From the NCBI RefSeq assembly GCF_009766105.1, contig NZ_LMUH01000005.1, positions 124,001 to 188,000 of the forward strand: 64,000 bases of DNA, read 5' to 3'. Positions within the stretch are counted from its first letter, which is position 1. Every line of letters starts with the position of its first letter. The DNA comes from Granulicella sp. S156 (lineage in GTDB: Bacteria > Acidobacteriota > Terriglobia > Terriglobales > Acidobacteriaceae). This document shows positions 28,719 to 32,246 of this stretch, piece by piece. The translations under genes and the position numbers were made by a program. The notes under the pieces were generated by a model. That model was given only the letters and a program-made list of their open reading frames with translations. It was not told the DNA's origin and did not search any database.

Positions 28719-31208
28719 GTGGAACTCTTGTCTCAAACCCCGGCTCCGTTGTCCGAGATCGGCGCGAAAGCGCTGCAATGGAATGACCTGCAGCAACAGC
28801 TTGCCGAACGCGCGCAGTCGCCGTTAGGGCGTGCGTGTGTGCTGGCACTTCAGCCCTCAGCCGAGTTGGCCTGGATTGAACAACAACAGCAACGCACCGC
28901 AGAGATGCGCCGCCTGATTACAGGCGGAGGCGGGTTTCAGTTTCGTGGCATCTTCGATCCGTCCGACGTGCTGGACAAGGCACGGATCGAAGGCTCGGCG
29001 CTGGAGCCTGCGGAGTTGCTGTCAGCGCTGGCATTGGCGGAGCGCGTCGAGGCTTGGCGGCAGGTGATTCTTGCCCCTCCGGGTGCGGTGCAGGGCAAGT
29101 GGCCCGCTATCGAAGAGCTGTCGGCGCCGTTGTTGATGCACGACCTGGGCGATTTGGTGCGCTTCTTGCGCGGGAAGATCGAGGCTGATGGCAGCTTGAG
29201 CGATGATGCTTCGCCGGAGCTGCGTCGCATCCGCCGGGCCATGGAGCGGCAGCATCGCGCGATCGAAGACAGCCTGCGCCGGGCCCTGGCAAAGCTATCC
29301 GAAGGCGGCAGCACGCAGGATGACCTCATCACAGTGCGCGGCGAGCGCTTCGTCATCCCTGTGAAGGCCGAGTTTAAACGCAAGGTTGGCGGCGTGGTGC
29401 ACGGTTCAAGCTCCAGCGGCCAGACTGTGTTTGTTGAGCCGATGGAGACGATCGAGCAGAACAATGAGCTGGTGCGGCTGCTCGACGAAGAGCAGGCTGA
29501 GGTGCATCGGATTCTAGTGGCGATGACGCGCGCGGTGTCGGCGCAGGCCCAGCCGTTGTTGTTGGGCGCTGCCATACTCGCGGAGGCCGATGCGCACCAG
29601 GCCGTAGCGCGCTTTGCGGAAGAGCTCGCGTGTGTGCGGCCGGTGTTTGTCTCCGCAGATGTTCGAGAGGATGAAGCCGCCGGCAATGAGCTTGAACTAC
29701 TGGCCGCGCGGCATCCCTTGTTGGAGCTGCGGCTACGCGAACAAGAGGCGAGCATTGTGCCCCTGACGATTGCGCTGCCTCTGGGGATGCGGCAGATGAT
29801 CGTGAGCGGGCCGAACACCGGCGGCAAGACCGTTGCGCTCAAGACCGCAGGTCTACTCGCATTGATGGCCCAGGCGGGAATTCCTGTCCCTGCGGAGCGT
29901 GCGCGGCTGCCGCTGTTTACAGCGATCTATGCGGATATCGGCGATGCGCAGTCGATTGAGCAGAACCTGTCCACCTTCTCGGCTCACGTCGTCAATGTCG
30001 ACCGCATTGCGCGCATCGCCGATGACACGTCACTGGTCCTGCTCGATGAGCTGGGCTCCGCGACCGATCCTGAAGAAGGTGCGGCACTGGCCGTCGCCGT
30101 GGCGGAGCACTTTCTCGTCCGCCGCGCGTGGTGCATCATCACGACGCATCTCACCTCGCTGAAGGTTTACGCGACCAAGCACGAGGGCGTGCTGAATGCG
30201 GCGGTCGGCTTCGACGAAGCGCGGCTTGCGCCGACCTACGAGCTGCGGCTTGGTGTGCCCGGAGCTTCAGCGGGATTGAACATCGCCGCGCGGCTGGGCC
30301 TCGATCCCGCGATCGTTGCGAATGCGCGCGCGCAGATGACCACGCAGCAGATCGATATCGGCCGGTTTCTCGATGAGCTCCATGCTCAGCTGGCAGCGGC
30401 GAAGGACGAACGCTCAGGGCTTGCGGAGCTGCAGAAAAAATTGGACGCGGAGCGCACGAAATTGGCGATCGAAGGCCGCGCCGAGCAGCAGGCACGCACG
30501 CGTGAGCTGGAGCGGCAACTCAAGTCGCTGATCGAGGACTTCGAGTCACAGCTTCGTGACACGGTGAAAGCCATCGACGACAAGACTGTCGCGCAGAAGA
30601 TTGCGCGCGATTCTGCGCTGCGCATCGCGCAGTTGCGGCGCGAGTTTTCGGAGCAGTTTCAGTCCACTGTGGTGGCACATGCTGAAAGCGATCAGGGGGG
30701 TAAGAAGAAGGCAGCGGACCGTCAGCGCGAGCCTGCTGTAGGCGATCTCGTGCGGCTGAAGTCGCTGGGGCGCGAAGGCCGCGTGGCGCGGGTGATCGAT
30801 GCGAAGACGCTGGAGGTTGCCGTCGGCGCGATGAAGATGCGCGTGCCGCGCAGCGATATCGCAGAGGTTGTGGCCGTAGCAAAGGAAACCCCAGTGCAAA
30901 GCGCGCGTCGGCGTGGCGGCGTTACGGTTTCAACTTCGAGCGGCTCAGACGATGCAGAGTATATGACCTCCGAGATCAACGTCATCGGCCGCACTGCGGA
31001 CGAGGCTGAGAGCGAGGTCGAACGCTTCGTGGAGCGCGCATTTCTGGCAGGGCTGCCGAGCATCCGCGTAGTGCACGGCGTCGGCATGGGCATACTGCGG
31101 CGGACGCTGCGAGAGTTCCTGCGGAACCATCCGCATGTAGCTTCTGTGACGGAGCCACCATATAACGAGGGCGGCCAGGGCGCGACAATGGTGGAGCTGC
31201 GGCAGTGA
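28719..31208 (+). CDS. mutS2: Endonuclease MutS2
   Basis: MutS2 is a MutS-like ATPase with a nuclease tail, linked to suppression of recombination and, in Bacillus, to rescue of collided ribosomes. It has the clamp/lever region, the ATPase with GPNTGGKT (about residue 364) and Walker B LLDELGSATDPEEG, a coiled-coil segment (about 545-620, many Glu, Lys and Arg), and a C-terminal Smr domain with VVHGVGMGILRRTLREFL. The MutS mismatch-binding domain is absent, as expected for MutS2. Start is GTG 28719. Length of 829 is normal. The left arm of the GIY-YIG repeat element begins directly after the stop. Confidence 0.95.
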   Translation: MELLSQTPAPLSEIGAKALQWNDLQQQLAERAQSPLGRACVLALQPSAELAWIEQQQQRTAEMRRLITGGGGFQFRGIFDPSDVLDKARIEGSALEPAELLSALALAERVEAWRQVILAPPGAVQGKWPAIEELSAPLLMHDLGDLVRFLRGKIEADGSLSDDASPELRRIRRAMERQHRAIEDSLRRALAKLSEGGSTQDDLITVRGERFVIPVKAEFKRKVGGVVHGSSSSGQTVFVEPMETIEQNNELVRLLDEEQAEVHRILVAMTRAVSAQAQPLLLGAAILAEADAHQAVARFAEELACVRPVFVSADVREDEAAGNELELLAARHPLLELRLREQEASIVPLTIALPLGMRQMIVSGPNTGGKTVALKTAGLLALMAQAGIPVPAERARLPLFTAIYADIGDAQSIEQNLSTFSAHVVNVDRIARIADDTSLVLLDELGSATDPEEGAALAVAVAEHFLVRRAWCIITTHLTSLKVYATKHEGVLNAAVGFDEARLAPTYELRLGVPGASAGLNIAARLGLDPAIVANARAQMTTQQIDIGRFLDELHAQLAAAKDERSGLAELQKKLDAERTKLAIEGRAEQQARTRELERQLKSLIEDFESQLRDTVKAIDDKTVAQKIARDSALRIAQLRREFSEQFQSTVVAHAESDQGGKKKAADRQREPAVGDLVRLKSLGREGRVARVIDAKTLEVAVGAMKMRVPRSDIAEVVAVAKETPVQSARRRGGVTVSTSSGSDDAEYMTSEINVIGRTADEAESEVERFVERAFLAGLPSIRVVHGVGMGILRRTLREFLRNHPHVASVTEPPYNEGGQGATMVELRQ

Positions 31209-31230
31209 TGATTCGATCGCCGCTGTTTTT

Positions 31231-31299
31231 GCTGCTGACGTTGCTTTTGTTTTTCTAGTTTGTCATTCCGAGCGCAGCGAGCGAACCTGCTTTCTCCCG
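31231..31299. repeat. Left arm of inverted repeat flanking the GIY-YIG pseudogene
   Basis: Bases 31245-31299 (55 bp) are a perfect inverted copy of 31656-31710, with core TTTGTCATTCCGAGCGCAGC. An outer block 31231-31243 also pairs with 31718-31730 (12 of 13), so each arm is about 70 bp including a short unpaired part. Confidence 0.85.
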
Positions 31300-31330
31300 T
31301 TCTTCGCTCGTGCCAGCACAAAGCCGGCTT

Positions 31331-31624
31331 TCACCACTCCGCCGCAAAATCCTCCCATGTTGGATTGACCTTTTCAATCAGTGTGATCTTCTTGTCGCGA
31401 GTCCAGTCCTTAAGCTCCTTCTCACGCGCAATAGCGTTGCGGACGTATTAAAACCGTTCGAAGTACACCAACCGTTGAATGTTGTATTGAGCCGTATATG
31501 CTCCCGGTTTCATCTCACGATGCTCTGCGATGCGGCGGATCAGGTCGTTCGTCATCCCGATGTAGAGATTTCGTGACCGGCTGCTCAGAATGTAAACGTA
31601 GAACTGGTATTCACGTTTTTGCAT
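31331..31624 (-). pseudogene. GIY-YIG nuclease family gene (UPF0213-like), nonsense-disrupted
   Basis: The minus strand encodes a complete small GIY-YIG nuclease of about 97 codons: start MQKREYQFYVYILSSRSRNL, then YIGMTNDLIRRIAEHREM (GIY-YIG pair as VYI...YIG, catalytic Arg and His), YNIQRLVYFERF, and end WTRDKKITLIEKVNPTWEDF. Codon 59 is TAA (31448-31450) exactly where the family usually continues without a break; a single C-to-T change of CAA would create it. Everything after the stop is intact, so inactivation looks recent. The gene fills the space between 55-bp perfect inverted repeats, with about 30 bp on each side. Such nucleases are often multi-copy in related genomes. Confidence 0.85.
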
Positions 31625-31655
31625 CGCAAGCAGTGTAACTAGTGTTAAGAAAAAG

Positions 31656-31730
31656 CGGGAGAAAGCAGGTTCGCTCGCTGCGCTCGGAATGACAAACTAG
31701 AAAAACAAAAATAAAAACAACGTCAACAGC
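31656..31730. repeat. Right arm of inverted repeat flanking the GIY-YIG pseudogene
   Basis: Perfect 55-bp inverted partner (31656-31710) of the left arm plus the outer partner 31718-31730. Together the arms could form a very stable cruciform or RNA hairpin with the nuclease gene in the loop. Confidence 0.85.
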
Positions 31731-31736
31731 AAGTTT

Positions 31737-32246
31737 CTACCGATGGGCTGTCGCCGTTGCCTTCTGAGCGATACCACGCGTGGCCTCAAAGTAAACCCCG
31801 CAGGCGCTGACAACAATACGTCCCGGCGCAACCAGCAGGATCGAGTCACCGGGCACCTCGGTGGAAGCTCCGGTAATGTCGGCATCCTCGTGCTGCAGAT
31901 CTACCTCCAACACCTTCGGCGAATGAATGCCGAGCTGTTCGAAGTCAGCACCAGCGCTCTCCTTGCGAAACTCCTTGTCCGTCACCTGGCGTGTGTCGAT
32001 GTCTTCAAGCGGCACCGGGCCGCCGCGCCAGCGCATCGTCTTATTGCCATAGGTCAGCGTCGAACCGACCAGCGGCTGCGCCTGCTCGGAACTCCAGCAG
32101 GCAGTATTTTTTGTGGGCAGCACACGCGTAATTCGCCACGTGCCAGCCAGTTGCGAAGGCAGCGGTTCGGCGGAAGTCGTGGCGGCCATCGTCGTTGCCA
32201 TCAGTGCGGCGCACGCAGCTGTTCTGACAGTCGTACCCCAACGCAT
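31737..32246 (-). CDS. Exported hypothetical protein
   Basis: 169-residue protein with a signal peptide (TAACAALMATTMAATTSAEP) and a compact beta-rich body beginning LAGTWRITRVLPTKNTACWS, similar in style to lipocalin-like or META-type small exported proteins. Conserved cysteines (about 50 and 151) could form a disulfide. Family not recognised. Its 3' end abuts the outer right arm of the GIY-YIG repeat element. Confidence 0.6.
   Translation of the reverse strand: MRWGTTVRTAACAALMATTMAATTSAEPLPSQLAGTWRITRVLPTKNTACWSSEQAQPLVGSTLTYGNKTMRWRGGPVPLEDIDTRQVTDKEFRKESAGADFEQLGIHSPKVLEVDLQHEDADITGASTEVPGDSILLVAPGRIVVSACGVYFEATRGIAQKATATAHR

Follow-up and report, generated by a model that had tools for sequence, protein, structure and literature searches.

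The locus studied here raises the question of why a small gene for a GIY-YIG nuclease lies between two long inverted repeats in a genome of Granulicella, and whether gene and repeats make up one mobile unit. In a sequence-only reading of the window, i.e. the whole stretch of 64,000 nucleotides of Granulicella sp. S156 that was analysed, such a unit had been proposed by analogy with REP-associated tyrosine transposases. The perfect 55-bp inverted copies that it described at 31245-31299 and 31656-31710 are exact reverse complements when read from the sequence. A repeat search extended them to arms of 81 nt (31224-31304 and 31651-31731) that are 85% complementary with 346 nt between them, and this pair was the sole inverted repeat reported within 31000-32000. 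The GIY-YIG gene is separated from each 81-nt arm by a gap of 26 bp. The features of the region are as follows, in window positions.

28719..31208, plus strand: flanking gene, which we take from its sequence to be mutS2-like; it marks the orthologous site in relatives
31224..31304, plus strand: left arm, 81 nt, perfect over 31245-31299 (repeat search, sequence)
31262..31290, plus strand: left REP core, TGTC-tagged, GTCATTCCGAGCGCAGCGAGCGAACCTGC, with the tag outward (sequence; genome-wide count of the pattern, N standing for bases that vary)
31331..31624, minus strand: broken gene for a 97-residue GIY-YIG (UPF0213-like) nuclease (reading frames, profile match)
31448..31450, minus strand: in-frame TAA, the frame ending after 58 codons (frame list, genome search)
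31651..31731, minus strand: right arm, perfect over 31656-31710 (repeat search, sequence)
31665..31693, minus strand: right REP core, TGTC-tagged, with the tag outward, head-to-head with the left core (sequence)
31737..32246, minus strand: second flanking open frame, across the unit from the mutS2-like gene; also conserved in the relatives G002 and G022

The unit strand (508 nt) folds at -126.4 kcal/mol versus -67.2 +/- 5.3 in 100 dinucleotide shuffles (z -11.3), and no known RNA family was matched within 30900-32100 at E values up to 1. Outside the TGTC tag (31224-31259, and other copies at L045-L094), a conserved TTTTCTGGTT is followed outward by TTTTGC-like hexamers. The ends of the REP unit are blurred because these hexamers are degenerate and vary in number.

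The frame at 31331-31624 on the minus strand matches the GIY-YIG domain (Pfam PF01541, E 2.7e-14, 53.6 bits for a cut-off of 22.6, the stop being read as X). It had been described as complete, which has to be corrected since the TAA at complement 31448-31450, also present in the genome search, leaves 58 amino acids. A recent death of this copy, as then suggested, is no more than compatible with what is seen, since the genome is a draft and the nonsense codon a single one. GIY-YIG enzymes have catalytic Tyr, Tyr-x-Gly, Arg and Glu positions that are conserved; in 23 relatives 19 positions were found to be invariant, among them Y11, Y21, G23, R31 and E68. The dN/dS ratio was 0.03-0.11 in six of the 11 nuclease pairs compared, two of which gave no computable value. 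It reached 0.37 for the pair L310/L142, in which L142 has a stop, and 0.37 and 0.22 for the broken window copy and its sisters.

The predicted model of an intact relative (mean pLDDT 93) has UPF0213 BH0048 as its nearest solved fold (E 3e-4), and the nuclease resembles the UPF0213 proteins (1zg2, 1ywl) in both sequence and predicted fold. A weaker fold match was obtained with Slx1 in Slx1-Slx4 (E 0.016 to 0.18, TM 0.54-0.58), an enzyme that works with Slx4 as a partner and whose matches are all weak, at E 0.016 or more. On the basis of these models, an enzyme of branched DNA would suit hairpins and cruciforms. The genome of the window (G000) contains three small GIY-YIG genes, each of them between arms, with the stems TTCC, TCTC and TCCT respectively. 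A fourth PF01541 match lies in a 696-aa frame that, because of its length, is probably UvrC.

The repeat core had been suspected of being a dispersed repeat, and genome-wide counts bore this out. The pattern GTCATTCCGAGCGNAGCGAG gave 68 matches at no more than 3 mismatches in the 6.44-Mb genome versus 2 for the backwards pattern; the 13-base core is exact in the window at the two arms only. A unique element is thereby ruled out, as the arm belongs to a genome-wide family. A 60-mer of the arm gave 59 BLAST matches in the same genome, of which 32 form 16 head-to-head pairs when the table is read by hand and 27 are solo copies or fragments. Fifteen of the 16 pairs span 182-204 bp and one holds the GIY-YIG gene. 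Scripted pairing returned 14 pairs and 43 solo copies, having missed diverged partners that are visible in the BLAST table, and three of its pairs (L046 and two in L078) were taken as lax matches or as another REP family. Once aligned, the arm copies (59 sites) have about 16-25 nt in common before GTC and 45-60 nt after it. The gene-less short pairs have the same outer anatomy as the gene-bearing pair, and a 243-nt stretch around one of them folds with a z of -12.9. Among the solo copies, the REP at L062 (G000:C15:176950-178200) is apparently cut short and runs directly into the final part of a different arm (GTCATTCCGAGCGTAGCGAGCGAATCTCGGAATGAC); it is perhaps what a collapsed pair has left behind.

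Both arm ends of the window unit carry the terminal tag TTGTCATTCC, while GTCATCTC, GTCATCCT and others are found in other clades. In a 2013 survey (PMC3733652), CGTC-tagged REPs are described as palindromic families with an outward TGTC/CGTC tag and a stem beginning with A/T, mostly arranged in head-to-head pairs, and most of their tails, though not all, match CCA. The Neisseria repeat dRS3 and two RPE families of Rickettsia belong to them. The species named include A. lipoferum, S. meliloti, N. aromaticivorans and Neisseria, from all of which loci are tested below, and the five phyla given for CGTC repeats do not comprise Acidobacteria (PMC3733652). According to the same survey, the class is apparently devoid of a dedicated transposase, a question that it left open (PMC3733652).

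In the loci collected here, a palindromic stem follows the tag in 47 of 55 automatically typed arms (two of the 55 being mistyped) versus a shuffled mean of 16.9 and a maximum of 25. An exact 4-nt stem complement is missing from the REP variants of the window, L129 and L130. The window REPs are like the CGTC-tagged ones of the survey (PMC3733652) in their TGTC/CGTC tag, their head-to-head pairs and their many copies, and unlike them in a degenerate stem and in arms that end in CTGC, not in CCA, a tail that several proteobacterial loci do carry. Judged by sequence, the window arms thus fit the CGTC superfamily except for the CCA tail and the degenerate stem.

The answer that we favour, with a probability of roughly 0.6, is that the unit is a decayed, gene-bearing, head-to-head TGTC/CGTC REP pair, one of a widespread set of co-evolving GIY-YIG/REP modules in which the nuclease would cut its cognate REP and host repair would copy it.

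A first line of evidence comes from relatives of the same genus. In the stretches compared, G002 and G022 are 92-96% identical and G000 stands at 81-84% from both. At three REP sites the gene is present in one genome, with only a short pair or a solo REP in another. The site of the window is occupied by the gene-bearing pair in G000 and by a gene-less short pair in G022, and shows no REP and a different sequence in G002. At the TCTC site, the gene is present in G022 and a short pair in G002, within corresponding flanks. At the TTCCCGC site, G022 has one REP and G002 has that REP followed by REP-gene-REP, the REP tail being repeated at the far end; no such REP was seen in the corresponding stretches of G000 (pattern scan) or of G025, G001 and G007 (by eye). 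In addition, a sister of the window's element occupies a common site in G002 and G022 where G000 is REP-less (by eye). A third nuclease clade has two copies in G022 with about 640 bp in common (gene and arms) and unrelated flanks. One of them is common to G002; the left flank of the other matches G002 and its right side, near a contig end, does not.

Occupied and gene-less REP sites, whose comparison had been proposed in the sequence-only reading, therefore alternate between relatives. Gene and arms are not always inherited vertically together, as seen from the gene-less pair of G022 at the window's site and from the sister element. Alignments inspected by eye revealed no obvious target-site duplication; at one site the REP tail is repeated. 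In none of the comparisons was the gene seen cleanly inserted, both junctions included, at a position otherwise lacking a REP. From the aligned sequences, the variable sites may reflect gene gain or gene loss, in either direction.

Two further observations were made in these genomes. The position of the window's unit in G002 was considered as a clean empty site and rejected as such, because the intergenic sequence differs and the REP pair has given way to another inverted repeat, CTTTGAAGGGGCGGGGC...GCCCCGGCCCCTTCAAAG (L159, G002:C1, mutS2 site). Imperfect palindromes of about 400 bp with the core CTGAATTGCTTTC...GAAAGCAATTCAG are present at L266 (G022:C14:63350-63800) and L271 (G022:C14:174900-175340). 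They are clean in G022, the G002 alignment is ungapped there and the G002 copy lies at another place. These palindromes are a second, unrelated miniature element family.

The main rival to our reading is that of a homing passenger, in which a selfish GIY-YIG gene lands in existing REPs that are multiplied by something else. GIY-YIG is a classic homing endonuclease fold, and several of the findings above suit this rival: the TTCCCGC site, with a REP followed by REP-gene-REP in G002 and one REP in G022, the two other sites at which a gene-bearing pair faces a short pair, and the fact that nearly all REP copies of the genome are gene-less. It accounts less well for gene-less short pairs that have the outer anatomy of the gene-bearing pair. 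It also calls for another multiplier of the REPs, and the five Y1_Tnp matches of the genome, at four places, include none between these arms (Y1_Tnp being the one transposase type considered).

The number of REPs per genome bears on the same point. Across 28 genomes of the genus, the window's REP family has 43, 139 and 144 copies in the three genomes whose nuclease clade is nearest to that of the window, versus 0-10 copies in the other 25 (p 0.0003), a correlation that is confounded by descent because these three REP-rich genomes are the nearest relatives at the window's site. TCTC-type REPs number 36-168 in the 7 genomes with a TCTC-armed gene versus 0-107 in the 21 without (p 0.0005), and the difference is kept within the 16 genomes that have any small GIY-YIG gene (p 0.015). 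Counts of the TTCCGNAGCG type, set against the cognate gene, gave p 0.006 and 0.017. In all these tests a one-sided arm was counted as cognate and relatedness was ignored. Exceptions exist: TCTC-type REPs are abundant without a cognate gene in G002 (84) and G016 (107), G013 holds 92 REPs of the three counted types with no small GIY-YIG match, and G015 has 58 copies of the TTCCGNAGCG type with no such arm found. With relatedness ignored, the three counted REP families reach higher numbers in genomes that have the cognate nuclease, which goes against REPs multiplied independently of it. The homing passenger thus appears unlikely, though it is the rival that keeps the most weight.

A second line of evidence in favour of a GIY-YIG/REP module comes from three sets of loci. 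The genus set consists of 39 loci, 38 of them testable (one has short flanks), a partial gene match in G027 being left out. The survey set consists of the best 80 of at least 576 confirmed GIY-YIG matches in contigs taken at one genome per species, 76 being testable and four having short flanks. The plasmid-collection set comprises 12 of 38 matches, chosen mostly for different genera, and its Neisseria and Aeromonas records are chromosome-sized. The 126 testable loci thus amount to 38 from the genus, 76 from the survey (best 80 of at least 576) and 12 from the plasmid collection. L139 and L178 are the same locus, untestable under either name.

Inverted arms within 200 bp were scored without any motif, a score that was in use for the genus before the survey, and an excess was obtained at each of five thresholds. 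At a score of at least 26, arms were found at 46/76 survey loci (best 80 of at least 576 matches) versus 16/1657 shifted windows of the same loci, with 39 versus 4 at a score of 30 and 25 versus 1 at a score of 40. When the survey loci (again the best 80 of at least 576) were taken together with those of the plasmid collection, arms were present at 57/88 loci versus 16/297 other ORFs of the same loci, and at 33/88 versus 9/297 for a score of 40. In the genus, 19 of the 38 testable loci reached a score of at least 26.

When hairpins were first tested for, with a generic 5-nt stem, 20/126 genes were positive versus 9/287 ORFs and 31/2313 windows. It was replaced by a test for GTCA with a 4-nt stem, a motif thus chosen after the loci were seen, and with it hairpin-checked outward REPs were found on both sides of 62/126 genes versus 3/287 ORFs and 4/2313 shifted windows (Fisher p 4e-34). 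L147 and L180 are the same two-sided locus and enter both the 126 and the 62 twice, so that the distinct loci come to 61/125. By set, the two-sided cases are 12/38 in the genus, 42/76 in the survey (best 80 of at least 576) and 8/12 in the plasmid collection. At least one outward REP accompanies 102/126 genes versus 43/287 ORFs and 161/2313 windows, and tail-to-tail REPs are seen at 18/126 genes, 4/287 ORFs and 4/2313 windows. Head-to-head cases (62) are therefore in excess of tail-to-tail ones (18) at gene loci, the control ORFs having 3 and 4. REPs were not found on both sides at 64/126 gene loci, and 24/126 had no outward REP at all. In the single-contig genome G007, none of the 4 GIY-YIG genes lies between matched arms and three of them have one outward REP.

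The two-sided survey loci, among the best 80 of at least 576 matches, belong to Acidobacteriota, Chloroflexota, Bacteroidota, Planctomycetota, Pseudomonadota, Myxococcota, Ignavibacteriota, Bacillota, Verrucomicrobiota and others. In the plasmid collection, inverted arms with a score of at least 30 were present at 11/12 loci, several of them from species known for CGTC REPs, and the sole exception was Rhizobium sp. L51/94, in which no inverted arms of that score were found. The gene is flanked by arms that have a CGTC tag and a CCA tail in Azospirillum lipoferum (CGTCATCCCCGCGAAGGCGGGGATCCA), Rhizobium (strain CIAT894, CGTCATCCCAGGGCTTGACCCTGGGATCCA), Shinella (CGTCATCCTCGGGCTTGACCCGAGGATCCA) and Aeromonas (A. 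caviae, CGTCATTCCCGCGCAGGCGGGAATCCA), and similar CGTC arms were observed in Sphingobium, Neorhizobium and Novosphingobium. The Neisseria locus has matched REPs of the same kind that point inward, the GTCA motif is missing from the arms of S. meliloti and N. aromaticivorans, and Planktothrix and Spirosoma have a low arm score (33-34). As to genomic context, the gene and its REPs lie between sufB and sufC in Azospirillum lipoferum (L295:2998-3291), and on a Planktothrix plasmid (L301:2995-3279) its neighbours are an MmeI-type restriction gene on one side and drmA, a gene of DISARM, on the other.

GIY-YIG genes thus lie between inverted arms elsewhere, far above controls, as a count suggested earlier had been meant to show. 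Arms that occur without any association with such genes had been named as a finding that would speak against the unit. On this point the outcome is mixed: nearly all arm copies of the window's genome are gene-less, as expected of REPs, but the genes themselves are strongly tied to arms. No report linking CGTC REPs with GIY-YIG genes was found among the papers listed in searches of the open-access literature without preprints, and earlier print may exist elsewhere or lower in those lists.

The third line of evidence is the co-variation of REP stem and nuclease. The stem is identical on both sides in 42/62 two-sided loci, versus a mean of 10.2 and a maximum of 20 in 1000 shuffles. On the nuclease tree of the genus, a quick tree with 16/36 forks open, the REP stem (4 types, 31 rows) changes 5 times versus a mean of 15.1 and a minimum of 11 in 300 shuffles. 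Four of these 31 labels were set by hand (L128, L129, L130 and L145, all TTCC), the automatic arm typing having taken a wrong GTC in L129 and L130, and some labels come from one side only. The host genome used as label on the same tree changes 25 times, and hence the REP type in the genus matches the enzyme, not the host. For the three sets together (12 stem types, 87 rows, the survey being the best 80 of at least 576 matches), 32 changes were counted versus a mean of 53.7 and a minimum of 46 in 200 shuffles.

It could also be imagined that REPs and small mobile genes merely gather in intergenic regions, the REPs serving as terminators and the enzyme acting in repair or defence. The strong folding of the unit is in line with such a neutral neighbourhood, and so are library matches that label the protein by its domain alone or as hypothetical UPF0213. 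A head-to-head excess seen at gene loci and not at control ORFs argues against it, and it leaves unexplained both the stem identity on the two sides and the co-variation along the nuclease tree. Of two nucleases scanned against a defence library, one had no match and the other partial matches only, at E 0.01-0.03; a defence gene or phage protein was accordingly rejected for the two proteins scanned. We hold this neighbourhood to be improbable, more so than homing.

Finally, a mobilisation of the REPs in trans by RAYT-like or TIR-flanked tyrosine transposases, with a GIY-YIG gene trapped by chance, can be dismissed as very improbable: long-TIR-flanked tyrosine transposases are described for Acidobacteria in the 2013 survey (PMC3733652) and the genome has its five Y1_Tnp matches, but in the CGTC-positive species that it names the same survey found none of these transposases between CGTC units, and chance trapping cannot yield the two-sided excess of genes over ORFs nor the match between REP type and nuclease clade. 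As owner of the arms, a tyrosine transposase was rejected after the five Y1_Tnp loci (four places) were searched with six REP cores at no more than 2 mismatches, which gave three single matches to the shortest core and no pair.

Coming back to the GIY-YIG/REP module, the mobile unit first proposed by analogy is supported by the REP family, by the association with arms, by the way in which REP type follows nuclease clade and by the alternation at sites. In the mechanism that we suggest, a REP extruded as a hairpin or cruciform would be recognised by its cognate nuclease, if that is a working one, and nicked or cut there. Host repair would then take another copy as template via the common arms and restore from it a single REP, a short pair or the full REP-gene-REP unit. 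The gene would spread among REP sites like a homing gene and its enzyme would multiply the REPs, these being non-autonomous partners of the nuclease, a role proposed for REPINs in relation to RAYTs. Because GIY-YIG enzymes hydrolyse DNA without staying covalently attached to it, joining would be left to host repair. Such a cut-and-repair model would account for the alternation of gene, short pair and solo REP, for the matched arms, for the co-variation and for the absence of a strand-joining enzyme, though not for the arrival of gene-less REPs at sites that had none.

Known systems resemble this module in part. As in REP/RAYT (TnpA-REP) systems, with their REPINs and REPtrons, the gene of a DNA-processing enzyme is flanked by two inverted REPs, and the genome is scattered with many solo REPs and REPIN-like short inverted pairs. 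TnpA-REP enzymes co-vary with their REPs (PMC8266576), and the nuclease does so with its REP here. Unlike in a RAYT REPtron, the enzyme is a GIY-YIG and not a Y1 HUH protein, the Y1_Tnp genes of the same genome lying elsewhere without these arms, and the tag is TGTC/CGTC, not GTAG. By analogy, the unit would work like a RAYT REPtron yet fall outside that group as defined by its Y1 HUH enzyme and GTAG tag.

Free-standing GIY-YIG homing endonucleases are a known system as well. The present gene is like them in its fold and in being present or absent at sites with common flanks, and unlike them in its candidate target, a multicopy REP family of its own genome and not one allelic site. In the same way, gene-less short inverted-repeat units beside one longer gene-bearing unit recall the MITEs of insertion sequences; the gene here encodes a GIY-YIG nuclease and not a known transposase, and no target-site duplication was seen in the site alignments.

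REPs are common in bacterial genomes. The GTAG-tagged ones have a candidate enzyme, RAYT; none was found for the CGTC superfamily in the 2013 survey (PMC3733652). A small GIY-YIG nuclease found between CGTC/TGTC REPs in many phyla is a candidate for the missing spreading machine. The broader proposal, to which we give about even odds, is that small GIY-YIG nucleases are the dedicated spreaders of this superfamily throughout bacteria, independently of HUH enzymes, through Slx1-like cutting and host repair and with a co-evolving stem. As the nuclease clade tracks the REP stem, the question of spreading becomes a direct cleavage assay. If true, it would also assign a function to proteins whose sole annotation is 'GIY-YIG nuclease family protein' or UPF0213, and would suggest a repair-driven spread of miniature repeats without a strand-joining transposase.
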